A stretch of DNA of 33,247 nucleotides from Treponema sp. (GTDB lineage Bacteria; Spirochaetota; Spirochaetia; Treponematales; Treponemataceae), in NCBI GenBank assembly GCA_024681195.1, contig JAILBH010000094.1:1-33247 (forward strand). The letters run 5' to 3'. Position 1 is the first letter of the stretch. Every line of letters starts with the position of its first letter. Shown one piece after another: positions 5,541 to 32,822 of this stretch. Below the pieces are notes generated by a model. That model saw only the letters and a program-made list of their open reading frames with translations, made no database searches and was not told the DNA's origin. The position numbers and the translations under genes were made by a program.

Positions 5541-6819
5541 AAGGAATCACAGCCCCCTTACGTATAACGATTATTCCATCGGCACTGTAGAAAGAACCGT
5601 GGTCTCCGTCATCGTATTTTTTACCGCTTACACCGATCTGACAATTGTCACCAATGCGGGCATTTTTATCGATAATGGTATTTGCGATTTTGCAGTTCTT
5701 ACCAATGCCGGTAACAGGTTTTCCTGCGGCAATGTAATCTGCCTTTTCATCATCATCATCGTAATAGTCTGCACCCATCATGATAACACCATCTAACTCC
5801 GTTCCTTTCTCTATAATAGAGCGTACACCGATTACAGATTTGTTAAGTTTACATTCTGTAATGATACAACCCTCAGAAGTAAGGGAGCTTGTAATATCCG
5901 CCTTGTTAATTTTTGAAGGTGGAAGGTTACGCATGTGTGTATATATTGGTGAATTGTTTGAATAGAAATTGAATGCCGGGCATGGCTCTGTCAACTGAAT
6001 GTTTGCTTCGTAGAAGCTTCTGATTGTTCCGATATCCTCCCAGTATCCGTCAAAAACGTAAGAACAAATCTTTTTCTTACCAATTGCAAGTGGAAGGATT
6101 TCTTTACCAAAGTCCGTGTATTTTTCATTTTCGCCTAAAAGGCATTCTTCCATAGTATTTGCATTAAAGATGTAAATACCCATAGAAGCAAGATATTCTT
6201 TTTCTGGGGGGAGTGCTCCACGTGCTTCTGCAGGAATCTTCCAGGCATCAATATTCATGTCTGGTTTTGGTTTTTCCATAAACTCTTTAACACGGCTCTT
6301 TTCATCAATTTTCATGATTCCAAAGCCTGAAGCATCCTTTCTGTTTACAGCAGTTGTTGCAATAGTAATTTCGGCACCAGATTTAATGTGTGCGTCCATA
6401 AAGGCACGAAGATCCATCTTATAAAGCTGATCACCAGACAAAATTACATAATGAGTTGGTTTTTGTGTCTTAAAATGAATAAAATTCTTTCGTACAGCAT
6501 CTGCAGTTCCTTCATACCAGCCCGAATGCTCCAGAGTCTGTTCTGCAGCAAGAATTTCTACGAATCCGCCAGAGAAGCGGTCAAAATTGTAGGAATTTGT
6601 AATGTGAAGGTGAAGTGAAGCAGAGTTAAACTGTGTCAAAAGATATATTTTTTTGTAGCCTGAATTGATACAGTTAGAAAGTGGAATATCTACAATACGA
6701 TATTTACCACCAAAAGAAACAGCAGGTTTAGAGCGTTCTTTTGTAAGAGGGTAAAGTCTTGTACCTTTTCCTCCTCCTAAAATCAATGCCAGCACTCTTG
6801 GTTCATCATTTTTTGCCAT
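5524..6819 (-). CDS. glgC: Glucose-1-phosphate adenylyltransferase
   Basis: LALILGGGKGTRLYPLTKERSKPAVSFGGKYRIVDIPLSNCINSG; YWEDIGTIRSFYEAN; C-terminal left-handed beta-helix repeats. Confidence 0.97.
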   Translation of the reverse strand: MAKNDEPRVLALILGGGKGTRLYPLTKERSKPAVSFGGKYRIVDIPLSNCINSGYKKIYLLTQFNSASLHLHITNSYNFDRFSGGFVEILAAEQTLEHSGWYEGTADAVRKNFIHFKTQKPTHYVILSGDQLYKMDLRAFMDAHIKSGAEITIATTAVNRKDASGFGIMKIDEKSRVKEFMEKPKPDMNIDAWKIPAEARGALPPEKEYLASMGIYIFNANTMEECLLGENEKYTDFGKEILPLAIGKKKICSYVFDGYWEDIGTIRSFYEANIQLTEPCPAFNFYSNNSPIYTHMRNLPPSKINKADITSSLTSEGCIITECKLNKSVIGVRSIIEKGTELDGVIMMGADYYDDDDEKADYIAAGKPVTGIGKNCKIANTIIDKNARIGDNCQIGVSGKKYDDGDHGSFYSADGIIVIRKGAVIPSGTVI

Positions 6820-6943
6820 ATATTATCTCCATAGAATTTTCTGATGTAACTTTTATTATAAGTCTGAAAGCCGGAATTTGCAAACTAATTATTTATTCTA
6901 AACTTTTTTTTATAGATTCCGACATTAAGAGTAAGGATTAAAC

Positions 6944-6971
6944 ATGTGTAAGGCCGCTGGCGGCCGGTGTT
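6944..6971 (+). repeat. Copy 2 of the ~28-bp hairpin-forming element (ATGTGTAAGGCCGCTGGCGGCCGGTGTT)
   Basis: 24/28 identical to 5485-5512; GGCC/GGCC stem with the same GCTGG loop start. Confidence 0.6.
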
Positions 6972-6978
6972 AAATAGC

Positions 6979-7016
6979 AAAGCGTTAAAAAAAATGCGAA
7001 TGCATTTTTTAGCTTT
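6979..7016 (+). terminator. Terminator-like hairpin in the glgC-flgF divergent region
   Basis: AAAGC-gtt-AAAAAAAATGC-gaat-GCATTTTTT-a-GCTTT, A-tract and T-tract paired. Confidence 0.55.
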
Positions 7017-7067
7017 ACAACATTGAATGCTAGTAGTCTTCGAAAATTTCAGGGGGATAAATATTAT

Positions 7068-7868
7068 ATGATTCGTGGATGGTATACCGGAGCTTCCGGT
7101 ATGAATGCTCAGCAGAACAGGCTGGACGCAATATCCAATAATCTGGCTAATGTAGATACAGCCGGATATAAACGTGATATTACAGTTTCAAAATCGTTCC
7201 CAGAGCTTCTTTTACGCCGTACAAATGCAGACGGTGTATATCAGATTCCGAATGGAATGGGTAGTGCAGATGCCGCCCCTGTAATCGGAAAACTTGGACT
7301 TGGTGTAGAGACAAACGAAAACTACATTGACTTTACCCAGGGTTCTTTTAAGCTTACAAATACCAGTACAGACATTGCTCTTGGCGGACCTGGCTTTTAC
7401 GTTGTAGATACACCAGCCGGCGAACGCTACACACGTAATGGTGATTTTTTAATCGGTAAAGAAGGTATTCTCGAAACAAAAGATGGTTATCCGGTTCTTG
7501 GTGAAAATGGAATTATTCATGTAGAAAACAATAAGTTCACAGTAAATCAGGATGGTGTAATCATTAGTGAAGAAGGTGAAGAAATTGACCGCTTCCGTGT
7601 AGTTCGTTTTGATAATGAGCGTTATCTTAAAAAGATGGGCGAAAGCTTTTATTCAACAAATGATATTGCAGGCCCTGCTCATATTGCAGAAGGAAATGAA
7701 CGTCCACGTTTTGTTCAGAATTATTCCGAAACAAGTAATGTAAACGTTGTAAACGAAATGGTTCAGATGATAGAAGTAAACCGTGCATACGAGGCAAACC
7801 AGAAAGCTATCACTTCTGAAGATTCAATGATGGGAACACTGTGGCAGAAGGTTGCCGTGCTCCAGTAA
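7068..7868 (+). CDS. flgF: Flagellar basal-body rod protein (FlgF-like)
   Basis: MIRGWYTGASGMNAQQNRLDAISNNLANVDTAGYKRD and C-terminal SNVNVVNEMVQMIEVNRAYEANQKAI. ATG at 7068 preferred over 7023 (AGGGGGATAA upstream). Confidence 0.9.
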   Translation: MIRGWYTGASGMNAQQNRLDAISNNLANVDTAGYKRDITVSKSFPELLLRRTNADGVYQIPNGMGSADAAPVIGKLGLGVETNENYIDFTQGSFKLTNTSTDIALGGPGFYVVDTPAGERYTRNGDFLIGKEGILETKDGYPVLGENGIIHVENNKFTVNQDGVIISEEGEEIDRFRVVRFDNERYLKKMGESFYSTNDIAGPAHIAEGNERPRFVQNYSETSNVNVVNEMVQMIEVNRAYEANQKAITSEDSMMGTLWQKVAVLQ

Positions 7869-7888
7869 TTTGGCAGGAAGGTAGATAA

Positions 7889-8683
7889 ATGGTAAGAAGC
7901 TTATGGACAGCCGCAACCGGCATGAACGGACAGCAGTCAAATATTGATGCAATTTCAAACAATCTTTCTAACGTAAATACAACAGGTTATAAACAGCAGA
8001 GAGTAGAGTTTGAAGATCTGCTTTATCAGAATCTTAAGCTTGCAGGAACTCCGGCTACAGAAGATACTGTAACTCCAGTTGGAATTCAGCAGGGAACAGG
8101 TGTTAAAGTTGGAGCAACTCAGCGTATTATGAACCAGGGTTCTTTGCAGAACACAGGTGTTGATACAGACGTTGCAATCGTTGGTGAAGGATTCTTCCGC
8201 GTTCAGCAGTATGATGGTTCTTATGTTTATACCCGCGATGGTACATTTAAAGTAGATTCAAACGGTCAGTTAGTTACAAATAACGGACTCCGCGTAATGC
8301 CTGAAATCATCTTGCCTGAAGGTTATGATGTAAGCACACTCAATATTACTCAGACAGGTCTTGTTAGTGTAAAGGTTAACGGCGGAAATGATCCGATTGA
8401 AGTTGGACAGATTGAACTTTACCGCTTTCCAAACCCTGTAGGTTTACAGGCAGAAGGTGATAATCTTTTTAAGGTAACAAATGCTTCGGGAGAAGCAATT
8501 GAAGGTCGCCCTGGATATGACGGCTTTGGTGATGTACGCCACAAGTTCCTCGAAATGAGTAACGTAAGCGTTGTAAACGAAATGGTACAGATGATTGTTG
8601 CACAGCGTGCCTACGAATTTAATTCAAAGGCAATCCAGACAAGTGATAATATGTTGTCAACTGCTGTCAATTTGAAGAGGTAG
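7889..8683 (+). CDS. flgG: Flagellar basal-body distal rod protein FlgG
   Basis: MVRSLWTAATGMNGQQSNIDAISNNLSNVNTTGYKQQRVEFEDLLYQ; C-terminal SNVSVVNEMVQMIVAQRAYEFNSKAIQTSDNML. Confidence 0.95.
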   Translation: MVRSLWTAATGMNGQQSNIDAISNNLSNVNTTGYKQQRVEFEDLLYQNLKLAGTPATEDTVTPVGIQQGTGVKVGATQRIMNQGSLQNTGVDTDVAIVGEGFFRVQQYDGSYVYTRDGTFKVDSNGQLVTNNGLRVMPEIILPEGYDVSTLNITQTGLVSVKVNGGNDPIEVGQIELYRFPNPVGLQAEGDNLFKVTNASGEAIEGRPGYDGFGDVRHKFLEMSNVSVVNEMVQMIVAQRAYEFNSKAIQTSDNMLSTAVNLKR

Positions 8684-8688
8684 GCTGA

Positions 8689-9189
8689 ATGAACGTAGGA
8701 TTAGTTTCAAATACATATAGCGGAATTACTGGTGGTCAGGGTGCATTAAATACAGCACGTACCAACAGCGATAATGCAAAGTTTTCTGATCTTGTTGCAC
8801 GTTTACAGGCACAGGATGATGGACGGGGAACTTTGTCTTCTTCTCAGATTGTAAAGGCTGGTGAATTCAAGGGAGATTATACAACAGGATATGAAGGCAC
8901 TTATACTTTAGAATCAGACAAAACTGCAATTGCTGCTGGTGCAGCCCGTAATCAGGCTAATCCTCACGTTCAGGCAAAAACAATTGATAAAACAAGCACT
9001 CTTTATGAAAAATCCCTTGAACTTGAAGGCTTTTTTGTAAAGCAGATGCTTTCTTCTATGAGAAAGACAATAATGAAGGCAAACGAAAGCGATTTTGCCC
9101 AGAGCATGTATGAAGACATGCTTTTTGATGAATATGCAACTGCAATGACAAAAATGCAGGCTTTGGACTTGCCGATCAGATTTACTTGA
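8689..9189 (+). CDS. Flagellar rod-binding protein (FlgJ N-terminal domain type, no muramidase domain)
   Basis: LYEKSLELEGFFVKQMLSSMRKTIMKANESDFAQSMYEDMLFDEYATAM resembles the FlgJ rod-binding domain; follows flgG. Confidence 0.8.
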   Translation: MNVGLVSNTYSGITGGQGALNTARTNSDNAKFSDLVARLQAQDDGRGTLSSSQIVKAGEFKGDYTTGYEGTYTLESDKTAIAAGAARNQANPHVQAKTIDKTSTLYEKSLELEGFFVKQMLSSMRKTIMKANESDFAQSMYEDMLFDEYATAMTKMQALDLPIRFT

Positions 9190-9221
9190 GTTTACAGGCA
9201 TAAAAAATAATGAGGGTGGGA

Positions 9222-9764
9222 ATGAAAAAAACTTATAATTCAATAAAAAATCTTTTACTCACAATTCTTACCATTATGATTGGCACTTCATTTTTTACAG
9301 GCTGTAGAACTGTAAAAAGTGTGAGTCTTGCTTATTCAGCTAATGAAGATATTGATGTAGCATATATTTATTTTCAACTTTATAAGAAAAACGAACTTAG
9401 TGGTGCATTATATGTTACATATAATAATTTAGAAACACAAAAAGCCGAAAAATTAACTTACTGGTCTCCGGTAGAGCTTCCTGCAGGAGAACCTCTTAAG
9501 CTAACCCTTAGGCTTTTATATAAAGAGCCTCGCTCTGATTTTGGCGATGAAAATTGTATTACTTCATGCTGTACTACAACTTTCAATGCCTTTGAAGCAA
9601 CACGTGACGTTAATAAGGAAATTACTTTTAATGTTCCACCGCTTGAACCTTTTACTGATTATGTAATCAGTTATCGTAAAGGCCCTGGAATTCCTGGTAA
9701 CAGTTACGTAACTCTCACAAGAAAGGATACAAAAGAAGTTATTCTTGAGAGAGAATTTAATTAG
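9222..9764 (+). CDS. Hypothetical lipoprotein
   Basis: MKKTYNSIKNLLLTILTIMIGTSFFTGC signal peptide with lipobox-like FTGC; GGGTGGGA upstream of ATG 9222. Confidence 0.6.
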   Translation: MKKTYNSIKNLLLTILTIMIGTSFFTGCRTVKSVSLAYSANEDIDVAYIYFQLYKKNELSGALYVTYNNLETQKAEKLTYWSPVELPAGEPLKLTLRLLYKEPRSDFGDENCITSCCTTTFNAFEATRDVNKEITFNVPPLEPFTDYVISYRKGPGIPGNSYVTLTRKDTKEVILEREFN

Positions 9765-9806
9765 GTTATTTTTGGACTCGTTCCTGAAATTTTGTTTACA
9801 TCCTTA

Positions 9807-9844
9807 CCCTCATTTTGCGTTGCAAAATGAGGGTTCTTTTTTTA
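9807..9844 (+). terminator. Rho-independent terminator
   Basis: CCCTCATTTTGC-GTT-GCAAAATGAGGG, 12-bp perfect stem followed by TTCTTTTTTT. Confidence 0.93.
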
Positions 9845-9848
9845 TAAT
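9820..9848 (+). promoter_or_regulatory. Candidate sigma70-type promoter for murC
   Basis: TTGCAA (9820-9825), 17-nt spacer, TATAAT (9843-9848). Predicted start near 9855, the murC A of ATG. Confidence 0.5.
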
Positions 9849-9854
9849 AACAAT

Positions 9855-11405
9855 ATGTCACAAATAAATGAAAATCTTAAACTTCCGCAAAACCTTAATG
9901 GTATTCATATTCATTTTGTAGGAATTAAGGGAACCGGAATGGCTGCCCTTGTAGAAATCTTTTATCATAACGGAGCTGTTATTACCGGCAGCGACGTTTC
10001 AGAACATTTTTATACAGATGAAATAATCGAAAAACTAGGGCTCAAAGCTCTTCCTTTTGCCAAAGAAAACATTACAGATGATGTTCAATATGTAGTTTAT
10101 TCTGCTGCCTATAAACTGGACAAAAATCCGGATCTTATAGAAGCAGTAAAAAGAAATATTCCGTGTCTTTTGTATACACAAGCCCTTGGTTTTTATTCAA
10201 GCCTGGCTTATTCCTGTGGAGTCTGCGGAGTTCACGGAAAGACTAGTACAACCGGTCTTGTTGGAACAATCTTAAAGCATATAGACGATATTCCATCTCA
10301 GATTCTTGCAGGTTCCATGATTAATTCTTTTGGAAATACCTGTACCTATACTTCGCCGCTGATAGAAAAACTGGAACCACAGGATAAAAAATCAAAATCA
10401 ATTTTTGTTGCCGAAACCTGCGAATACCAGCGCCATTTTATGTCGTTTTTCCCAAAAAAAATAATTCTTACTTCGGTAGAACTTGATCACGAAGACTATT
10501 ATCCAACTTATGAAGATATAAGACAGGCCTTTGTTGATTATATATGCAGGCTTCCTATGTTCGGAGAACTCATTTATTGTGCAGATGATCCAGGAGCGGT
10601 TGAAACAGCTCTTATTGCCTATAACAAGCGCCCGGATATTCACATGGTCCCTTATGGAGTAAATGCCGGCGGAGATTATAAGCTTACATTCTGCAGTGTA
10701 GAAAATGAAAAAAACAACTTTAAGCTTGGTGCGTTTGAAAAAGAATTTGCAATTCAAATGCCTGGAAAACATGAAGTAATGGATGCTGCCGCAGCCGTAG
10801 CCCTTGTTTGCCAGATTCTCCGTTATTTTGGAAAACATCCTTCAGAATATGCAGACAAAATAGCAGAAGGACTTCTTGCTTTTACAGGTGGAAAACGCCG
10901 AAGCGAAGTTGTAAGAAAATTTAAGACACCTTCGGGTAATGATGTTATAGTTCTTGATGATTATGGTCATCATCCTACAGCAGTAAAAACAACACTGGAA
11001 GGCTATCGTGAATTTTATAAAGGCCGTAAAATTATTCTGGATTTTATGAGTCATACTTACAGTCGTACACAAGGGCTGCTTAAAGAATTTTCCGAAAGTA
11101 TGGACAGTGCAGATGTTGTAATTCTTCATAAGATTTATAGTTCTGCCCGCGAAAACCCTGCAGATTTTAATATAACAGGAAAAGATCTTTACGAAAAAAC
11201 CTTAGAACACCAGAATGAAAAAGGAACAACTGCTGCAAAAAATAATGCAATTTATTATAAAGAAGAAATTCTTGATGCAAAGGATATTGCTCAATCCGAG
11301 CTTGAAAAACCTCTTCCACCAGAATACCCGGATGGTTATCTTTTTATAACAATGGGTGCCGGTGATAACTGGAAGCTTGGAAAAGAGATTTTTAAAGAGG
11401 TATAA
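9855..11405 (+). CDS. murC: UDP-N-acetylmuramate--L-alanine ligase
   Basis: IHFVGIKGTGMAALVEI; GVHGKTSTTGLVGTIL; VAETCEYQRHFMSFFPKKIILTSVELDHEDYY; LDDYGHHPTAVKTTL. Confidence 0.93.
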   Translation: MSQINENLKLPQNLNGIHIHFVGIKGTGMAALVEIFYHNGAVITGSDVSEHFYTDEIIEKLGLKALPFAKENITDDVQYVVYSAAYKLDKNPDLIEAVKRNIPCLLYTQALGFYSSLAYSCGVCGVHGKTSTTGLVGTILKHIDDIPSQILAGSMINSFGNTCTYTSPLIEKLEPQDKKSKSIFVAETCEYQRHFMSFFPKKIILTSVELDHEDYYPTYEDIRQAFVDYICRLPMFGELIYCADDPGAVETALIAYNKRPDIHMVPYGVNAGGDYKLTFCSVENEKNNFKLGAFEKEFAIQMPGKHEVMDAAAAVALVCQILRYFGKHPSEYADKIAEGLLAFTGGKRRSEVVRKFKTPSGNDVIVLDDYGHHPTAVKTTLEGYREFYKGRKIILDFMSHTYSRTQGLLKEFSESMDSADVVILHKIYSSARENPADFNITGKDLYEKTLEHQNEKGTTAAKNNAIYYKEEILDAKDIAQSELEKPLPPEYPDGYLFITMGAGDNWKLGKEIFKEV

Positions 11406-11407
11406 AT

Positions 11408-12283
11408 ATGACATCGATGACCGGCTATGCTTATGAAGAAGTTACATCTGAACAAACTGTTGTTTCTGTAGAAATCAAATCGGTAAACTCACGCTTTCTG
11501 GATCTTACAATTAATCTGCCAACATACCTTAATCCAATTGAAAGCTATTTCCGCACAAAAATAAGCGAAAAAGTTACCCGCGGCAAGGTTGATGTTTATA
11601 TCCGTATTAAGGAAAATCATTCTGATGCACAGATAAGCGTAGATACCCAGCTTGCCAAAACTTATATGGAGGCTTACAGACAGATTGCAGCTGCAGCAGG
11701 AATTGCAGGCGTTCATCCGGCTGCAGCTATTTATGCTCTTATTAATCAGGATGGAGTTCTTAATTCAAATAAGGAATATGATGTAGAAAAATATAAGACT
11801 CTCATAGATCCGGTTTTTGATGCAGCATTTGACCGTTTTGTTTCTGACAGAGAAAGGGAAGGTGCAAATCTTAAAAAAGACCTTGAAGAAAAACTTACAG
11901 TCCTGGAAAACTGTGCCGGCTTCTTTAAAGATTGGCAGCCAAAGATGGAACAATATTTTAAAGAACAGATTACAAGCCGCTTTAATGAACTGCTTGGCGA
12001 AAACGCAGATCAGAACCGCATAATGACAGAGACAGCTGCAATGCTTGTTAAATATACTATTAATGAAGAAATTGTACGTTTATTCAGTCACATTAGCGCA
12101 ATGAAAAATGAAATTCAAAATAATCCTGTTCCTGGAAAGCGACTGGATTTTATCTGCCAGGAAATGAACAGAGAAATTAATACAATAGGCAGTAAAAATC
12201 AATTTTCAGAAGTTGGAGCAATGGTAATAAACGCAAAGGATGCTCTTGAAAATATTCGTGAACAGAGTAAGAATGTAGAGTAA
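11408..12283 (+). CDS. YicC family protein
   Basis: MTSMTGYAYEEV...VEIKSVNSRFLDLTINLP; C-terminal GKRLDFICQEMNREINTIGSKNQ. Confidence 0.95.
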   Translation: MTSMTGYAYEEVTSEQTVVSVEIKSVNSRFLDLTINLPTYLNPIESYFRTKISEKVTRGKVDVYIRIKENHSDAQISVDTQLAKTYMEAYRQIAAAAGIAGVHPAAAIYALINQDGVLNSNKEYDVEKYKTLIDPVFDAAFDRFVSDREREGANLKKDLEEKLTVLENCAGFFKDWQPKMEQYFKEQITSRFNELLGENADQNRIMTETAAMLVKYTINEEIVRLFSHISAMKNEIQNNPVPGKRLDFICQEMNREINTIGSKNQFSEVGAMVINAKDALENIREQSKNVE

Positions 12284-12284
12284 G

Positions 12285-12312
12285 CGCGGTCCCAAAGCTA
12301 GTCGAAGGGCAC
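12285..12312. repeat. GC-rich intergenic imperfect palindrome, candidate dispersed repeat
   Basis: gcgcggtcccaaagctagtcgaagggca; resembles the widespread CCCTGAGCTTGTCGAAGGG-type repeat. Confidence 0.35.
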
Positions 12313-12327
12313 ATACAGGAGGCATAT

Positions 12328-12861
12328 ATGAAACAAGATTTACGTATAGCAATAAGTGGAAAATCGGGCTGCGGAAACACAACCGTCAGCGGTTTACTGG
12401 CTCAGAAGCTTGGATTAAAACTGATTAATTATACTTTCCGCCAGCTTGCAGAAGAAAAGGGAATGACTTTAAAAGAAGTTATAGAAGCTGCAAAAAATGA
12501 TGACTCCTATGATAAATATGTAGATAAGCATCAGGTAGAGCTTGCACTTGCAGAGCCTTGTGTACTTGGAAGCCGTCTTGCAATATGGATGCTCAAGGAA
12601 GCAGACTTTAAGGTTTATCTTTATGCAAGTGACGAAACCCGCGCTCAGCGCATTTTTAATCGTGAAGGCGGGAATTTAGAGGCAATAAAAGAATTTACAG
12701 CAATGCGTGACAGGGAAGATACCGGCCGCTATAAGGAGTTTTACGGCATAGATAATAACGATTATGATTTTGTAGACCTTATTATAGATACGGTAAATTT
12801 TCTTCCGGATCAGATTGTTGAGATTATCTGTGAAAAGCTTAAGGAAAAAGGCTTAATTTAA
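12328..12861 (+). CDS. Cytidylate kinase-like P-loop protein
   Basis: RIAISGKSGCGNTTVSGLLAQKLGLKLINYTFRQLAEEKGMTLKE...RAQRIFNREG...MRDREDTGRYKEFYGID, archaeal-type CMP kinase architecture. Confidence 0.8.
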   Translation: MKQDLRIAISGKSGCGNTTVSGLLAQKLGLKLINYTFRQLAEEKGMTLKEVIEAAKNDDSYDKYVDKHQVELALAEPCVLGSRLAIWMLKEADFKVYLYASDETRAQRIFNREGGNLEAIKEFTAMRDREDTGRYKEFYGIDNNDYDFVDLIIDTVNFLPDQIVEIICEKLKEKGLI

Positions 12862-12864
12862 TTC

Positions 12865-13398
12865 CTAGAATTTGCTTTCTGCAAAGCCAAGCCAGTTATC
12901 GTTAGCTAATAATGCTTTTTCTGCATCATCAAGCTGGAATGGATAGCTTTTTGAAAGTGAGCCTGCAATGAGCTTTACCTTTGCTGTTCCATCGTCGTTA
13001 ATAACGATTTTACATTCAGTATCTTTGCTGGCAAAGGTTTTGAACATATCTGCAAGTGATTTTCTGTCAATTTCAATACCCATAAGGTTGCAGGCAAACA
13101 TATCCTGACGGAATGGTTTTGCATAGGTAGGGGCAACAACTGTAAAAATACCGTTTACCTCGAGTGCAGAAGCTGCGTGTTCTCTTGCTGCTCCGCATCC
13201 AAAGTTTTCCCTGGTAATAATTACTTTTGTTCCTACTACATCTGCTTTTGGATTAAAGCCTTCTATTTTAAGTTCTTCAAAAAGATGTGTTTTTAATTCC
13301 TGTTTAGGAAGCTCTTTTAAGTAATTTTCCAGAATAATTTCGTCAGTGTTGATGTCCGACCTGTCCAAAAAGAGGACTGGACCGCCAAAAGTTTTCAA
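12865..13398 (-). CDS. leuD: 3-isopropylmalate dehydratase small subunit (aconitase swivel domain)
   Basis: RSDINTDEII, VIITRENFGCGAAREHAASALEVNGI; TTG start preceded by GGGGG. Confidence 0.85.
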   Translation of the reverse strand: MKTFGGPVLFLDRSDINTDEIILENYLKELPKQELKTHLFEELKIEGFNPKADVVGTKVIITRENFGCGAAREHAASALEVNGIFTVVAPTYAKPFRQDMFACNLMGIEIDRKSLADMFKTFASKDTECKIVINDDGTAKVKLIAGSLSKSYPFQLDDAEKALLANDNWLGFAESKF

Positions 13399-13560: not shown

Positions 13561-13590
13561 TTGACAATAAACTTCATCATAGAGTATAAT
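13561..13590 (+). promoter_or_regulatory. Consensus sigma70-type promoter
   Basis: TTGACA (13561-13566), 18-nt spacer, TATAAT (13585-13590), ahead of the TTG start at 13637. Confidence 0.75.
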
Positions 13591-13636: not shown

Positions 13637-15532
13637 TTGAAGCGTTTTTGCATTGCAGCAGGTATCTTATTTCTTTTTATTTTTAAATTACCTGCCGCAG
13701 ACTTTACTTTTACAGCAGCCCCAGCAGTAAATATCCAGTTAGATAAAAAAATGCCAATCGGTTTTTCTGGTTTTATTCAGGCCGATTTAAATCTTTTTAG
13801 TTTTTTAACCTTTGGTATTGAAGGAAACTATTCCATGTTTAAGCCGGATGGTTTTACAAAACCTATTCAGCTTTATGGAGGCGGTCTTGATTTAGGACTT
13901 TATTTTTTCCCGCTTTCACGTATTTATACAGGAATAGGCGGTGGTTTTGGTATTAATTCCGGTTATGTAAATGTACGGGAAGCAAATGCAGTTTATGCAA
14001 CCTACAATCCAAACGGACTATATTATCACGGTTATGCAGATTTAGGCTTCCGCTTTAATCCAAATTTTATTCTTACAATAAATGGTGGTTATTTATCTTA
14101 CATAAAGAAGGATTTTTCTAATTTTAACAATGGCTTTTATGCAGGAGTTGGAATTAAAATAAATAAAACTGTTGGAAGCAGTGCAAGAAAAGCAAAGGCT
14201 GTAACAGTCAGTCTTGAACAGTACGGAGATATCTATCCTTCATTCAGCAGAATTTACCGTGATAATGAATGCGGTATGCTTACAATTACAAATCATGAGT
14301 CTGCAGAAATTCGTAACGTTCATATTTATTTTGATGCAGACAAATATACCTCGAATGTAATTGAATGTGGTCATGTTTCCAGAATAAACCGCTATAAGAG
14401 TACACAGATTCCTTTGTATATTGATTTTTCGGATGCCATCATGAGCTTTAGTGAGAACGGACTCATTCCAGGAACCGTTACTATTGATTATGAAATCCTT
14501 GGTCAAAAAAGACAGATTAAACAAAGTGTAAACCTTTCTATACGAAACCGAAACGCTTTTGTATGGAGTGATAAGGCTGCATTAAGTTCCTTTGTTTCTT
14601 CAGAAACTCCGGAAATTCAGAACTTTGCAAAATCTGTAGCGGGGATTGCCCGAAACCAGCTTGCAACAGGTATGAACAGAAACATTCAGTTTGCTGCAGG
14701 TATGTTCCTTGCTCTTCGTTGTGCAAATATTACTTATTCAGAAGATACTCTTACACCTTTTATAAGCTATCATGCCACCGAAGAAGAAGATTCTATTCTT
14801 TATCCTTTGCAGACAATGGAATGTCTTAGCGGAGACTATGATGATATTGGTATTCTTCTTATGTCTTGTCTTGAATCCCAGGGTATAAGCTGTGCCTATA
14901 TGGTTACCGAAGATGATTTTATTGTATTTGTAGATTTAGCGCTTTCTCCTTCTGCTGCCACAAATCATTTTGTAGATTTGGAATCGGTTTTGATTGATGA
15001 AGAACAAAATAAAGTTTATCTTCCACTTTCTATGGCAGAATATGAACATGGATTTACAACAAGTAAAAACAAGGGTGCTTATGAACTTAAAAAGCTCCTG
15101 CTTGATGAAGAAGGAATCTATGAGTTTATTCTTGTAGAAGAAGCCTGGACCGTTTATAAGCCTGTTGTATTTAATGTTGCTTCTCAGAATCTTCCAAAGC
15201 CTTCAGATACATATCTTGTTGAACAGCTTGATACTGCCGTTAACAACTATATTTATACAGATTTGAATCCTATTGTAGAAAATCTTAAGAAAACCGGCGA
15301 TCATAATAAGATTGGTGTTGCTCTTGTTCGTGCAAAGCGCTATTCAGAAGCAAAGGCAGAATTCCAAAAGGCAGGAACTGCAGCTGCAATGAATAATATT
15401 GCAAACATCTGTACTATTGAACAAAATTATGACGAAGCCATGAAGATGTATCAGAAAGCTCTGGAAATGGATCCGGGAAATAAGACGGCTCAATCAGGAC
15501 TTGATAACTTAAAAAATAAGCTTGGATTATAG
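13637..15532 (+). CDS. Exported beta-barrel-like / transglutaminase-like-fold protein with C-terminal TPR; catalytic residues lost
   Basis: Signal peptide MKRFCIAAGILFLFIFKLPAA; alternating beta segments; paralogous to the next gene; GDYDD and EDDFIVFVD replace GDCDD and PGHIYIAFD; TPR motif near C-terminus. Confidence 0.75.
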   Translation: MKRFCIAAGILFLFIFKLPAADFTFTAAPAVNIQLDKKMPIGFSGFIQADLNLFSFLTFGIEGNYSMFKPDGFTKPIQLYGGGLDLGLYFFPLSRIYTGIGGGFGINSGYVNVREANAVYATYNPNGLYYHGYADLGFRFNPNFILTINGGYLSYIKKDFSNFNNGFYAGVGIKINKTVGSSARKAKAVTVSLEQYGDIYPSFSRIYRDNECGMLTITNHESAEIRNVHIYFDADKYTSNVIECGHVSRINRYKSTQIPLYIDFSDAIMSFSENGLIPGTVTIDYEILGQKRQIKQSVNLSIRNRNAFVWSDKAALSSFVSSETPEIQNFAKSVAGIARNQLATGMNRNIQFAAGMFLALRCANITYSEDTLTPFISYHATEEEDSILYPLQTMECLSGDYDDIGILLMSCLESQGISCAYMVTEDDFIVFVDLALSPSAATNHFVDLESVLIDEEQNKVYLPLSMAEYEHGFTTSKNKGAYELKKLLLDEEGIYEFILVEEAWTVYKPVVFNVASQNLPKPSDTYLVEQLDTAVNNYIYTDLNPIVENLKKTGDHNKIGVALVRAKRYSEAKAEFQKAGTAAAMNNIANICTIEQNYDEAMKMYQKALEMDPGNKTAQSGLDNLKNKLGL

Positions 15533-15545
15533 AGCGGAGAAAGGA

Positions 15546-17156
15546 ATGAAGCTCGTAAGCAAAAAATCAGTTTTTTGTGCAGTTCTTTTATATGTTTTCT
15601 CCTTCTGCGGAATTTTACCGCTGGCTCAGGCAAAAGCAGCAGAATTTTCTATAAGGGCTTTTCCAATATATACTTATTTTAGTAATGATCTTTGTAAGCT
15701 TGGACTTGGTGGAACTGCAGCTTTTGATTTTTCTCCTGCTACATTCCGTGCAAATGACAAGCTGCTTTTTTCTGTACAGGGTTCTTATGTAAATATGATT
15801 GAAGACGGAATTAATGCCGAAAACTATATTGATTATGGTATTGGAGCCGGCTATTCCTTTAGATTAAGCGACCGCTTTTATATGTATCCGGAACTCTTAG
15901 GTGGAATCTGGACAATTATTCAAAACAAAAAAAACAAGCTTCCTTCAGAAAGAGGCTTTTTATACGGAGCAAGACTTTCGTTTGAATTTCACATTCTTCC
16001 GGAGTTATATGCTTCTCTAAATGCAGGCTATAAATCACTTAATCTTTTAGATGGAATTCTTTCGCATAGTATTCATGCAGGAATTGGAATTACCTATAAT
16101 TTTTCTAAGGGCCTGCGTTATTCTTCTAATATTAGTATTCCAGAGGTAGATTTAAGTCCGCTTTTTCCGGTTTTTTATGCGCATTATATTGATAATCCTT
16201 TTGGAACAATTACTCTTGCAAATAATGAAGAAGCCGCAATTACCGATGTCCATGTGTATTTTTACAATGAACAGTATATGCTTGCCAGAACTCTTGTGGG
16301 CTCCTTTGATAAAATCAAACAGGGAGAACAGGTTAAGATTCAGATTACGGCTCTCTTAAACGAAAGCATCCTTTCACAGCTTTCCGAATCAATGACAACA
16401 GCTCAGGTTACAGTTGAATATAAGCTTTTAAATAAAGCAAAGGATTATTCACAGACTCTTTCATTTACAACCTTAAGCCGTAACTCTATGACCTGGGAAG
16501 ATGACAGACAGGCTGCAGCTTTTGCTTCTCCAAGAGATTCCTGTGCTCAAAAATTTGCCAGGCAGGTTAAATCAATTGTAAAATCTTCGGTTCGTAAAGA
16601 TATTCCTTTGAATATTCAGTATGCAGGTGCGCTTTTCTGTGCTCTCAAAGAATATGGAATTAACTATGTAATAGACCCGAGTTCTGCATATTCAGATAAT
16701 ACTGGTGGACTTACAATAGACTTCCTTCAGTTTCCTTATCAGACCCTCTCTTATCACGGTGGAGACTGTGATGACCTTTCTATTATGAATTGTTCGCTGC
16801 TTGAAGCAATTGGAATTAAAACTGCGTTTGTAACAATTCCTGGTCATATTTATATTGCATTTGATTCCGGGGTTTCTGAAGAAGAGGCAAAAACTCAAAT
16901 TCCAAACGGGCACTATGTTGTAAAAGATGGGGTTGTATGGATTCCTTATGAAATTACACTTTGCACCGATACCTTTGATCTGGCGCTTAGAACCGGATAC
17001 AGCCAGTGGGAAAAAGCAGGGGAGGCTGCAGCTTTAATTCCTTTAAAGGATGCGTGGGCTGCATTTAAAGCAGTAAGCGTGCCCGAATCAGATACTTCCA
17101 TTCAGTTCCCGGAACACGAAAGAATTCTAAAATCTTTTGCTAATTTAACCTATTAA
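15546..17156 (+). CDS. Exported beta-barrel-like / transglutaminase-like cysteine-protease-fold protein
   Basis: Signal peptide MKLVSKKSVFCAVLLYVFSFCGILPLAQAKA; barrel-like N-terminal region; HGGDCDDLSIMNCSLLEAIGIKTAFVTIPGHIYIAFD; VVWIPYEIT. Confidence 0.75.
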   Translation: MKLVSKKSVFCAVLLYVFSFCGILPLAQAKAAEFSIRAFPIYTYFSNDLCKLGLGGTAAFDFSPATFRANDKLLFSVQGSYVNMIEDGINAENYIDYGIGAGYSFRLSDRFYMYPELLGGIWTIIQNKKNKLPSERGFLYGARLSFEFHILPELYASLNAGYKSLNLLDGILSHSIHAGIGITYNFSKGLRYSSNISIPEVDLSPLFPVFYAHYIDNPFGTITLANNEEAAITDVHVYFYNEQYMLARTLVGSFDKIKQGEQVKIQITALLNESILSQLSESMTTAQVTVEYKLLNKAKDYSQTLSFTTLSRNSMTWEDDRQAAAFASPRDSCAQKFARQVKSIVKSSVRKDIPLNIQYAGALFCALKEYGINYVIDPSSAYSDNTGGLTIDFLQFPYQTLSYHGGDCDDLSIMNCSLLEAIGIKTAFVTIPGHIYIAFDSGVSEEEAKTQIPNGHYVVKDGVVWIPYEITLCTDTFDLALRTGYSQWEKAGEAAALIPLKDAWAAFKAVSVPESDTSIQFPEHERILKSFANLTY

Positions 17157-24047: not shown

Positions 24048-24587
24048 TTAATGGCGGTAAAAATCGACGATAGAACGGCCATAAATTCGCTGATCTGTAC
24101 GTTTTAATGAGCCGATTGTATCAGGCATAAAATGCTCTTCCGGTCTGTGAACCATAATTATACCATCAGGTGAAAGCATTCCGTTTTTGTCGGCCTGTTC
24201 TACAAGCTGTTCGTGAAATTTATAAGGGAAGGGTGGATCAAAAAAAATATAATCAAAAGATTTCTTACAACGTTTAATAAAATATTCTACAGGCATAAAA
24301 TGACATTGAATTTTTATGCCCAATTCTTTTTCTGTAATTTTTACATTATTTAAAAGTGTGGAAGTTTTGATTTTGTCTTTTTCGCAAAGTTCAATATGGG
24401 TTGCTCCGCGGGATGCTGCTTCAATTGCAATTGTTCCCGAACCCGAAAAAAGATCAAGCCAGGATTTTCCGGTAAGGTCACCAAGTATAGAAAAAACAGA
24501 TTCACGCATTCTGTCCATGGCCGGTCTGATTATTCCGTCAGGGCATTCGATGATTCTTCCTTTTAATGTTCCGCCAGTTATTCTCAT
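24048..24587 (-). CDS. rsmD: 16S rRNA (guanine(966)-N(2))-methyltransferase
   Basis: MRITGGTLKGRIIECP...RPAMDRMRESVFSIL; WLDLFSGSGTIAIEAASRGA; FDYIFFDPPFPY. Confidence 0.95.
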   Translation of the reverse strand: MRITGGTLKGRIIECPDGIIRPAMDRMRESVFSILGDLTGKSWLDLFSGSGTIAIEAASRGATHIELCEKDKIKTSTLLNNVKITEKELGIKIQCHFMPVEYFIKRCKKSFDYIFFDPPFPYKFHEQLVEQADKNGMLSPDGIIMVHRPEEHFMPDTIGSLKRTDQRIYGRSIVDFYRH

Positions 24588-26671
24588 TTTTTATTTAAAG
24601 CCCAGTAAGTGTCATCATGTGGTAAAGAGGAATTCTGTTTTGCAAAATCAAAAGCAGTTTTACCATCGGAAGTACGAAGTGAAGTTGAAGCACCGTATTC
24701 AAGCAGCTTTTTAATGATTGCAGTGGAAGATGAATATTGTGCAGCATACATAAGAGGACTCTTTCCATTGTAGAATGTATTTAGAGGAATTGCTTTTTGA
24801 AGGAATAGTTCTGTTTTGGCAAGCTTTGAAGAATCACTTACAGAATTATCAGAAAGCATAAGGATAAATGCCTGCATGACGTCTTTTTCCAAAGCTGTGT
24901 AATATGAAAGAAGCTTTTTAATTACAGCAGGATTTGAATTATAAGTCGCAGCAAGCGAAAGAGCCGAAACATTAAAACGGTTTTTATTTTTAATATCTGC
25001 GCCCTGTCCAATAAGCTGCTCAATTATTATAAGATTTTCCTGATAGCGAACTGCATACATAAGGGCTGTCCAGCCGTCATTATCTTTTAGATTTACGTTT
25101 GCACCCGAAGTAATAAGTTTTTTTAATTCCTTATCATTTCCAGTTTTTGCAGCATTCATTAAGAGTGTAACACCTTTTGAATCTGCCTCGTCAGGATTAA
25201 GAATTATATTTTCATCTTCGTCCTCATCATCAGACGGAAGAGCAATTGTCTTTTTGGGTGCGTAATCAAGAAGGTTTTCTCTCTGATAACGGTTTACGTT
25301 TGTTGTGGCTTCGGTGCTTATAGGAAGCTCGAATGTGCTTTCGGGTTCGGTTGCAGCTGGTGTGGCAGTTTCAACAGGGGCTTGGGCTTCAGTTGGTGCA
25401 GGTGTTGGTTCGGGTTCTGGTGCGGCAGCGGCTTCTTGTGTTTCAGTTGCTGCTGGCAGAGGTGCTGGTTCTGGTATTGCAGCTTGTGTCGGAACCGGAA
25501 CAGGGGCAGGAGTTACAACAGGAGCCGGGGTTGGAGCCGGTACTGGTGCAGGTGCTGGCGTTGCAGCGGGAGCCGGTATTGACGGTGTTTGTGCAACAGA
25601 AGGTGAAGGAATTGGCTGTACCTGGCTTGGTGGATTTAAGAATTCTGTATATTCAGCATTGTTTTTTTCTGGATGTAGAATATCCGGCTCAGAAAAACGT
25701 GAGGCAGTCTTTGGCTCAGATGTGGTTGTGGCTTCTACAGGGGTAGAGGTTACGACTTGGGCTTGAGTTGCAGCTGGAGTTTGGGTTGCTGCTGGAGTTT
25801 GGGTTGCTGCTGGGGCCGGAGTTTCGGTTTGTGCGGTGGCTGCTGCTGGAGTTGTTGTTTCAGCTTGAGCTGGGGCCGGAGTTTCGGCTTGTGCGGGGGC
25901 TTCAGCTACGTCAGTGGATTCAACCGGTGCGGGGGCTTCAGCTACGTCAGTGGATTCAACCGGTGCGAGGGCTGCAGCTTCTTCAGCAGCTTGATCCGGC
26001 TGGGCTGTGGCTGCGACCTGTGCTGTGGCTGCGACCTGGGCTGTGGCTTCAACCGGTTCGGCGGCTGCAACAGCTTCTCTTGATTCAAACGGCGCAGCAG
26101 CTGCAGCTTCTTCAGCAGCTTTTTCTTCCGGAGCTGTAGCTGCAACTTCTTCAACAGATTCCGGCTCTGCTTCCGGTGCCGGGGCTACTTCAGTTTCGGC
26201 TTCTGCAACAGAAGCTTCTGGAGTTTCTTCAGGTGTTGTAATTTCAAGTTTTGTAGGTTGGGTAAGATAATTAGTAAAAAAATATTTTTCGTAAGTATCT
26301 GCAACGCCAAACGCAGAAATATCTTCCTTTACCTTTTTGAATTCATCGGCAAAGAATTTTTCGGGATTTTTGGTAATATAAGTTTTGTTTTTGGCAATAC
26401 AATAATCTTTATCAGGTTTAAGAGAATTTGCAATCCAGATAAGAACAATTTGTTCACGACTGTCTACAGGCCCGCAGACAACGTTTCCTGCTTTTGTTTT
26501 ATTTTTGAGTTCACAAATGTACCAGCTTTTTGGAGTTTCTTCAGTTTCGTTTATTTTTGACAGAACATTAGAAGGTATATTAGAAAGCTCTTTCTTTTTT
26601 GCAGAAAAAGCCTGGGAACTTATTAAAGACAGGAACAGAAAAACTAAAACAATTCTTCTCTTAAAATTCAT
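24584..26671 (-). CDS. Exported ankyrin-repeat protein with long Pro/Ala/Glu/Thr low-complexity linker
   Basis: Signal peptide MNFKRRIVLVFLFLSLISSQAFSA; low-complexity VAATAQ, ESTDVAEAPAPV and TPAATQ repeats; C-terminal ankyrin repeats (KGVTLLMNAAKTGNDKELKKLITSGANVNLKDNDGWTALMYAV). Confidence 0.88.
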   Translation of the reverse strand: MNFKRRIVLVFLFLSLISSQAFSAKKKELSNIPSNVLSKINETEETPKSWYICELKNKTKAGNVVCGPVDSREQIVLIWIANSLKPDKDYCIAKNKTYITKNPEKFFADEFKKVKEDISAFGVADTYEKYFFTNYLTQPTKLEITTPEETPEASVAEAETEVAPAPEAEPESVEEVAATAPEEKAAEEAAAAAPFESREAVAAAEPVEATAQVAATAQVAATAQPDQAAEEAAALAPVESTDVAEAPAPVESTDVAEAPAQAETPAPAQAETTTPAAATAQTETPAPAATQTPAATQTPAATQAQVVTSTPVEATTTSEPKTASRFSEPDILHPEKNNAEYTEFLNPPSQVQPIPSPSVAQTPSIPAPAATPAPAPVPAPTPAPVVTPAPVPVPTQAAIPEPAPLPAATETQEAAAAPEPEPTPAPTEAQAPVETATPAATEPESTFELPISTEATTNVNRYQRENLLDYAPKKTIALPSDDEDEDENIILNPDEADSKGVTLLMNAAKTGNDKELKKLITSGANVNLKDNDGWTALMYAVRYQENLIIIEQLIGQGADIKNKNRFNVSALSLAATYNSNPAVIKKLLSYYTALEKDVMQAFILMLSDNSVSDSSKLAKTELFLQKAIPLNTFYNGKSPLMYAAQYSSSTAIIKKLLEYGASTSLRTSDGKTAFDFAKQNSSLPHDDTYWALNKK
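25767..25820. repeat. 18-bp in-frame tandem repeat, about 3 units
   Basis: gttgcagctggagtttgg / gttgctgctggagtttgg / gttgctgctggggccgga; encodes (TPAATQ)n on the minus strand. Confidence 0.85.
25895..25966. repeat. 36-bp in-frame perfect tandem duplication
   Basis: gggggcttcagctacgtcagtggattcaaccggtgc twice, at 25895-25930 and 25931-25966; 12-aa unit VESTDVAEAPAP. Confidence 0.92.
26004..26039. repeat. 18-bp in-frame tandem duplication
   Basis: gctgtggctgcgacctgt / gctgtggctgcgacctgg; encodes (VAATAQ)2 on the minus strand. Confidence 0.85.
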
Positions 26672-26724
26672 TTCTATATTATACTCCATATTATAATTTT
26701 TTACAATGATAGCCTATATCCTTA

Positions 26725-31607: not shown

Positions 31608-32822
31608 ATGGCATATTCAAGCATTTCTATTCTGGCATTGCTTGTTCTCCTGATAATTAACTATGATCTGCTTAAAAGAAATGATGATGAATTAAAAGAA
31701 AGATATCACAAGCTTTACAAATACTTTCTTTTAGGCGTAATAATCTACTTTATAACCGACGCATTATGGGGTTTTTTATACGATGCCCGTCTTATAAGAG
31801 CAGTGTATATAGATACTGTTTTATATTCACTTGCAATGACTGCAACGGTTTTTTTATGGACGCGCTACGTAATCAATTATCTTGGTAAAAGAACTATTTA
31901 TATAAAAGCATTTTCGTGCTTTGGTTGGCTTTATCTTATCTTTGACTCTACGGCACTTATAATAAATTTCTTTATTCCAATAAAATTTTATTTTGATGAA
32001 CAAGGTGTGTATCATGCAAATTTGATCAGATACATAGCACTTTTCCTGCAGATATTAATGTTCTTTATCACATCAATTTATGGTTTTATTAATGCTGCAA
32101 AAACTTCCGGTTCAGAAAGATTAAGATATGTAACAATTGGAACCTTTGGAATTGCATTAACTCTCTTTATTGTGGCACAATCCTTCTATCCGCTTTTGCC
32201 GCTTTATTCAATCGGTTATCTTTTAGGAACCTGCCTGGTTCATACTTTTGTACTTGAAGATGAAAAGGAAGATTACAGACGTGAACTTGAATTCTTTATA
32301 AACAGGGAACAGTTACAGAAGAAGGAGCTTGGTTCTACCCGAAAGCTTGCATATACAGATTCTCTTACAGGTGTAAAAAATAAACGCGCCTTTACCGAAG
32401 CCGAAAAAGAAATTCAGGAAGCTGTAAACTGTGGCCTTATTAATGAGTTTGGAGTTATTGTGTTTGATTTGAACGGGTTAAAGATGATAAATGACACTAG
32501 AGGTCATGATGCCGGAGATAAATATATTCAAGATTCTTCTCAGATTATCTGTAATGTATTTAAACATAGTCCGGTTTATAGAATTGGTGGAGATGAATTT
32601 GTTGTTTACCTTCGTGGTGAAGATTATAATAATAGAGAAGATTTGATTAATTTGTTTGATAATATGATGGATGAAAATCTTCTTAAAAATGATATTGTAA
32701 TTGCAAGTGGAATTGATGTTTTTTGTTCTGCAAAGGGAGATTCCTTTATAAGTGTATTTGAACGTGCAGATAAAAAAATGTATGAAAGAAAAAAGAATCT
32801 AAAGCAAAAGCTTAAGGAATAA
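31608..32822 (+). CDS. Membrane-anchored diguanylate cyclase (GGDEF)
   Basis: Six to seven hydrophobic segments, then YTDSLTGVKNKRAF...VIVFDLNGLKMINDTRGHDAGDKYI...VYRIGGDEFVVYL. Confidence 0.95.
   Translation: MAYSSISILALLVLLIINYDLLKRNDDELKERYHKLYKYFLLGVIIYFITDALWGFLYDARLIRAVYIDTVLYSLAMTATVFLWTRYVINYLGKRTIYIKAFSCFGWLYLIFDSTALIINFFIPIKFYFDEQGVYHANLIRYIALFLQILMFFITSIYGFINAAKTSGSERLRYVTIGTFGIALTLFIVAQSFYPLLPLYSIGYLLGTCLVHTFVLEDEKEDYRRELEFFINREQLQKKELGSTRKLAYTDSLTGVKNKRAFTEAEKEIQEAVNCGLINEFGVIVFDLNGLKMINDTRGHDAGDKYIQDSSQIICNVFKHSPVYRIGGDEFVVYLRGEDYNNREDLINLFDNMMDENLLKNDIVIASGIDVFCSAKGDSFISVFERADKKMYERKKNLKQKLKE

Follow-up and report, generated by a model that had tools for sequence, protein, structure and literature searches.

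The window, that is, the whole 33,247-nucleotide stretch of a Treponema sp. contig that was analysed, contains a tandem pair of genes, here termed A and B, which encode proteins with a transglutaminase-like (TG) domain. The features of the pair are as follows.

13561..13590, plus strand: candidate promoter of the A-B operon, a perfect sigma-70 consensus (TTGACA-N18-TATAAT, 12/12 positions)
13637..15532, plus strand: gene A, predicted pseudo-transglutaminase paralogue, 631 aa, with a TTG start and a GGAG ribosome site just 5'
13637..13699, plus strand: putative signal peptide of A, residues 1-21, by inspection of LKRFCIAAGILFLFIFKLPAA; helix 2-15 in the model
13697..14173, plus strand: predicted 8-stranded OmpA/NspA-like beta-barrel of A, residues 21-179 (AF2 model)
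14201..14542, plus strand: predicted Ig-like beta-sandwich of A, residues 189-302 (AF2 model, profile-profile comparison)
14555..15148, plus strand: TG domain of A, triad lost, residues 307-504 (AF2, Foldseek)
14837..14839, plus strand: Tyr401 of A at the Cys position (codon context GGA GAC TAT GAT GAT)
14915..14917, plus strand: Asp427 of A at the His position (orthologue alignment)
15029..15031, plus strand: Ser465 of A at the Glu position (orthologue alignment)
15206..15523, plus strand: C-terminal TPR repeats of A, residues 524-629 (Pfam TPR_1, E = 7.6e-10)
15546..17156, plus strand: gene B, predicted transglutaminase-like protein of the outer membrane, in an ORF that opens at 15522, with its probable start at the ATG of 15546
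15642..16100, plus strand: predicted 8-stranded beta-barrel of B, ORF residues 41-193 (AF2, NspA structural match)
16131..16472, plus strand: predicted Ig-like beta-sandwich of B, ORF residues 204-317 (structural match)
16485..17066, plus strand: TG domain of B, triad intact, ORF residues 322-515 (PF01841, Foldseek)
16767..16769, plus strand: Cys416 of B, predicted nucleophile (102/102 B-type proteins)
16845..16847, plus strand: His442 of B (102/102 B-type proteins)
16950..16952, plus strand: Glu477 of B (102/102 B-type proteins)

The consensus match lies 46 nt upstream of the start of A and, in a region without an overall excess of promoter-like sites, is suggestive of a promoter for the pair. 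The probable start codon of B is preceded by an AAAGG-type site and lies 13 nt from the stop codon of A, and with this short gap and the promoter match the two genes look like a single operon.

A and B were found to be full-length paralogues, each with a signal peptide, an 8-strand OmpA-like barrel, an Ig-like domain and a TG domain, to which A adds TPRs. BLASTP comparison of the two gave 24% identity over 522 aa (E = 3e-37), and profile-profile comparison of their orthologue sets gave a probability of 100 (E = 1.3e-98) over 555 columns with the triad sites in register. The initial annotation had set Tyr (14837-14839) of A opposite Cys (16767-16769) of B, and Asp (14915-14917) opposite His (16845-16847); these coordinates proved exact and the alignments agreed with the pairing, as they did with the proposed exchange of Glu for Ser, with Ser465 (15029-15031) facing Glu477 (16950-16952). 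In the MAFFT alignment, the Y/D/S of A and the C/H/E of B fell in identical columns. AF2 models built from the orthologue alignments had mean pLDDT values of 90.3 (A) and 90.4 (B), and in these models the helices and strands of both TG domains followed in the same order. A misalignment of the triad was considered and rejected on the basis of the profile-profile alignment and this equal order of secondary structure.

Comparison of the models with VIA-align matched both barrels to NspA (1p4t), with a Z of 17.6 and 2.8 A over 151 residues for A, and a Z of 19.4 and 2.6 A over 152 residues for B; the B barrel was also matched by Pfam OMP_b-brl at 1.3e-4, below that family's cut-off. For the Ig-like sandwich of B, a match with a Z of about 10 was obtained to one beta-sandwich of TG2 and of protein 4.2. 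As the VIA-align lists were dominated by barrel and TPR matches, they were little informative on the A TG domain. Foldseek matched this domain to human TG3 (E = 6.3e-4) and that of B to FXIIIa (9.3e-4) and TG2 (1.4e-3), with protein 4.2 also among the PDB matches. Weak PF01841 matches at E <= 0.1 were obtained for 34 of 59 B orthologues (best 4.9e-5) and 5 of 69 A orthologues, with scores that mostly, including that of the window B, fell below the curated cut-off; the single-copy relative L080 scored 22.6 bits against a cut-off of 23. A sequence search of the PDB with the TG domain yielded nothing usable apart from a coiled-coil lobo-like protein, which matched a short part at the Cys helix (E = 0.27). 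TPR_1 was found in all 69 A orthologues and in L080, and the window B has no TPR. As modelled, A retains its fold, barrel and TPRs despite the loss of the active site, and the predicted fold of B is a transglutaminase fold. By analogy with the C-terminal domain of OmpA, the domains that follow the barrel would face the periplasm.

To follow the active site across orthologues, A was searched for in 59 relatives and the B alignment was searched against genome contigs, with 80 of 400 confirmed stretches kept. These 80 were all from Treponema or other Spirochaetales, including many rumen or herbivore-gut MAGs as well as T. bryantii, T. ruminis and T. zioleckii, and most of the sequences analysed are from MAGs. 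The Cys site in 96 distinct A proteins was occupied by Tyr (40), Lys (20), Leu (9), Val (8), Cys (7), Ala (4), Ser (4) and four single residues, the His site by Asp (91), Glu (4) and Thr (1), and the Glu site by Ser (82), Ala (11), Arg (2) and Lys (1). None of the 96 thus retained His or Glu, seven retained Cys alone, and no A orthologue that had kept Cys/His was encountered. All 102 distinct B-type proteins, which include four single-copy proteins without an A neighbour, carried Cys, His and Glu, in keeping with the earlier description of the second paralogue as an apparently active copy. Since His and Glu are absent from every A protein and C/H/E is present in every B-type protein, the contrast is not a matter of chance.

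Transglutaminase-like enzymes usually have a Cys-His-Asp triad, the third residue of which lies in a W-x-P-x-[DE] motif. The motifs of B are a Cys-helix (GGDCDDLS), PGH and W-x-P-x-E, so that its third triad residue is Glu at the position of Asp, and a Cys-His-Asp/Glu triad in motif order was present in all 102 B-type proteins. On the tree, a single change suffices for the His column, against 26 for the Cys column (all residues), a pattern in which the nucleophile position drifts and the Asp at the former His site is fixed. Lys or Tyr opposite this Asp could act as a structural lock in place of the Cys-His pair. Residues conserved specifically in A are Glu326, Gly336, Asn347, Tyr375, Phe428 and Met466. 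A is very probably catalytically dead by the thiol mechanism, and its status as a pseudoenzyme is well supported.

To root the phylogeny, more distantly related proteins that carry C/H/E and have a length of about 1000 aa (L169-L172 and L174) were used. In the rooted tree, single-copy C/H/E proteins branched first, followed by one duplication (bootstrap/SH-aLRT 100/92) that gave an A clade (100/100, stem 0.36) and a B clade (99/91, stem 0.098). Of the outgroup and single-copy proteins added, 16/17 carried C/H/E, and their position on the rooted tree means that A lost a site which its ancestor had; according to this reconstruction the loss occurred once, at the base of the A clade soon after the duplication, with a burst of change. 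The duplication is common to several families of the order. Distances among A and among B proteins at 94 loci were strongly correlated (Mantel r 0.84 for TG, 0.81 for Ig and 0.85 for the barrel, with 0 of 500 permutations as high), though operon linkage alone also gives mirrored trees and the result hence shows that the two are inherited together, not that they are in contact. The window pair is syntenic with those of L083 and L084, at 75-78% DNA identity over about 10 kb, and was therefore vertically inherited. The rooting proteins form a second family of about 1000-1090 aa from other spirochaete genomes, with a C-terminal Ig+TG region and intact Cys/His/Glu.

Between orthologues, the dN/dS of the A TG domain (Nei-Gojobori) was about 0.04-0.20, comparable to that of the other A domains, and the value for the window A against L083 was 0.16; for the B TG domain it was mostly lower, at about 0.01-0.11 (Nei-Gojobori). 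These ratios are approximate, as dS was near saturation in some pairs, but none approaches 1. From such values A is maintained by purifying selection and is not decaying, and the maintenance foreseen in the initial annotation is borne out. In one MAG, A is split into two adjoining ORFs of 353 and 295 aa (L144:2419-4361), through a frameshift or an assembly error.

Gene order was strongly conserved. A immediately preceded B, on the same strand, at 79/79 B-seeded contig loci that held both genes, and in the A-seeded set B was beside every A not at a contig end, except at G042/L073, where the order is A, a small secreted (FecR-like) protein, a CHASE2 cyclase and B. The FecR identity of this small neighbour, assigned by eye only, was discarded, as Pfam gave no FecR-family match at E <= 1 in the copies scanned and does not support the name. 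Among 114 pair loci, some of which were counted twice via two collections and many of which were cut by contig ends, a giant Ig-like lipoprotein was found near 55, and the small secreted protein together with a CHASE2-adenylate/guanylate cyclase at 24. All five genes stood in line at L058/L127 (T. zioleckii), L116, L123, L126, L142 and L118. The giant lipoprotein has an N-terminus such as C-DSWMQDDDFYSDIENDVKVANA, reaches about 2,100 aa and has Big_5 matches. It also lies 3' of the single-copy relatives L080, L081 and L177, so the link between lipoprotein and enzyme is older than the duplication.

The window's own genome holds three pairs: the window pair, a second with the CHASE2 operon (C173) and a third accompanied by the lipoprotein (C174). 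The cyclase of C173 matched PF05226 (5e-26) and PF00211 (5.7e-20). The window pair has neither recurring neighbour, being flanked by LeuD upstream on the other strand and by a GH31 gene downstream, and farther upstream of its orthologue at L084 the end of a protein of the lipoprotein family is present. Elsewhere in the window are a GGDEF diguanylate cyclase gene (31608-32822) and a gene for an ankyrin-repeat protein (24584-26689), for which no link to the pair was seen. Giant Ig-repeat lipoproteins (L044:3-3806, L162:10420-15612 and similar) share a conserved N-terminus, C-x-x-W-M-x-x-D-x-(F/Y), and their N-terminal part gave 15 matches in the window's own genome, most of them weak. At L145, an additional barrel-less A-like protein of 377 aa with its own signal peptide (5873-7003) lies between A and a B of 2006 aa that has TPRs and is greatly extended at its C-terminus (7007-13024). 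The CHASE2 cyclase 3' of the pair at L051 (G030:C28) is split into ORFs of 402 and 517 aa.

Our preferred reading, to which we assign a probability of about 0.6, is that A serves as the pseudoenzyme partner to B, an outer-membrane enzyme whose target is probably the giant lipoprotein or another envelope component. The ancestor would have been an outer-membrane-anchored transglutaminase-like enzyme with a signal peptide, an 8-strand barrel, Ig-like and TG domains and TPRs. One ancient tandem duplication would have given rise to A and to B, which kept Cys/His/Glu, and A would have swapped its active site for a fixed non-catalytic one, with Asp for His, Ser or Ala for Glu and, at the Cys position, a residue that varies but is usually Tyr or Lys. 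Both TG domains would hang into the periplasm from their barrels in the manner of the OmpA C-terminal domain, where A may bind B, the substrate of B or both through its pseudo-active-site face and TPRs, and so position the substrate or gate B. B would cleave, deamidate or cross-link a component of the envelope, for which the likeliest candidate is the giant Ig-repeat lipoprotein, found beside B more often than any other neighbour. At loci where the small secreted protein and the CHASE2 cyclase follow, the state of the envelope might be signalled inward as a cyclic nucleotide.

In the window subfamily, B has no TPRs and A no catalytic triad, and together they make up the domain set of the single-copy ancestor. 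This complementary content fits a two-protein complex, which is the simplest reading of the split of ancestral parts, the fixed order and the near-obligate co-occurrence. The tandem order, the mirrored trees and the complementary domains also make a regulatory or scaffold role for A, as suggested earlier, more likely. We consider it probable that A acts together with B, whilst single-copy relatives that occur without any A are a counterpoint. Both the physical partnership and the substrate of B are what we infer from these patterns. The proposal of the giant lipoprotein as the substrate, based on its ancestral linkage to the enzyme, is a guess that we think somewhat less than even. More tentative still, and on balance unlikely, is a five-gene spirochaete outer-membrane signalling and processing system in which the barrel-anchored enzyme, gated by its dead twin, acts on the giant lipoprotein, and the secreted protein and CHASE2 cyclase report this as a cyclic nucleotide; if true, it would resemble Lap-like adhesin release, but from unrelated parts.

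Another reading of the dead paralogue is that A has an independent role, as an outer-membrane TPR/Ig scaffold or binding protein that merely shares the operon of B. The possession by A of its own barrel, signal peptide and TPRs, the barrel-less A-like protein of 377 aa at L145, and a variability at the Cys site which suggests that the old site is not tightly used are all in its favour. Nonetheless, we regard it as unlikely, in view of the near-obligate adjacency and fixed order across deep divergence, the A-seeded set, in which no A clear of a contig end was seen to lack B, the arrangement at L073, where the two partner genes known from other loci are enclosed by A and B, and the fixation of Asp at the His site (91/96).

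That A is instead a neo-enzyme, with a new catalytic site built on the conserved Asp427 (kept in 91/96) and Ser465 (82/96), appears very unlikely. Catalytic-site migration is known in the superfamily (PMC10318531) and the A-specific conserved residues do show constraint on the remodelled domain, but Ser is replaced by Ala in 11 A proteins, among them the closest orthologues of the window A at L083 and L084 (YDA), and by Arg or Lys in the deepest branches, and with about ten residues at the Cys position there is no invariant nucleophile at the three positions. No more credible is a live Cys-Asp enzyme in some lineages, similar to the Streptomyces transglutaminase, with secondary losses elsewhere. 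Asp or Glu can substitute for His in some functional transglutaminases (PMC10318531), the Cys-Asp combination is carried by 7/96 A proteins, which by this analogy might have weak activity, and the Cys column changes often (26 changes on the tree); set against this, 89/96, including the window A, have no Cys, and the Cys cases are scattered within clades that have Lys, Ala, Val or Ser. That A is simply a decaying duplicate about to be lost, which could explain the disappearance of all three catalytic residues and the split A of the L144 MAG, is refuted by the orthologue triad pattern, dN/dS far below 1 in every domain, full-length ORFs at nearly all loci, the rooted tree and a duplication common to several families of the order, and can practically be discounted.

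No published description of the A-B pair was found in the open literature searched. B resembles the PF01841 Transglut_core superfamily in its Cys-helix, PGH and W-x-P-x-E motifs and its fold, but differs in the barrel anchor, the Ig-like domain in front, the Glu as third residue and the near-obligatory dead twin. Dead transglutaminase folds are kept as structural or adaptor parts in the eukaryotic protein 4.2 (EPB42) and FBXO21 (PMC10318531), which are like A in that the fold is maintained, yet these are distant in sequence, have neither barrel nor TPR and do not stand beside a live copy in an operon. The LapG-LapA-LapD system combines a BTLCP protease, a giant surface adhesin and a c-di-GMP receptor (PMC3032545), and thus likewise an envelope transglutaminase-like Cys protease, a giant surface protein and cyclic-nucleotide signalling. 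LapG, however, is soluble and periplasmic and has no dead partner, whereas B is barrel-anchored and, as its outer-membrane barrel (AF2, NspA match) shows, is not a soluble periplasmic BTLCP protease; here the large protein is a lipoprotein and CHASE2 precedes a cyclase of the adenylate/guanylate type. Neither a LapD-type receptor nor a type I secreted RTX adhesin recurs among the neighbours of the pair within up to 7 kb. In the BiofilmReg operon of Burkholderia, which contains a FecR/CHASE2 gene pair (PMC5192318), a small secreted protein similarly adjoins a CHASE2 sensor, but its CHASE2 is part of a histidine kinase, in contrast to the adenylate/guanylate cyclase of the loci described here.

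Pairs of an enzyme and a pseudoenzyme are not new in principle, but an old, order-wide bacterial outer-membrane pair with about a hundred natural sequences would provide a clean model for the fixation of a dead twin. The pair also suggests that gut Treponema, of which some are in cultivation, have a module for envelope processing that is as yet undescribed and may be connected with giant surface lipoproteins and with signalling by cyclic nucleotides.

The Ig+TG region of B also matched positions 14-296 of the 1903 in NF058533, 'anti-phage protein ProA' (E = 1.7e-12), but at 45.7 bits against a cut-off of 1500 and over 283/1903 positions, the remaining 1600 residues being absent from B. An anti-phage function was not adopted from this name, as the match covers the shared Ig+TG part only, PADLOC found nothing and the literature search gave no description. 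The matching segment of B (P0002) spans residues 229-503, and the Ig+TG pair thus seems to be used in a defence-annotated protein of 1900 aa as well.
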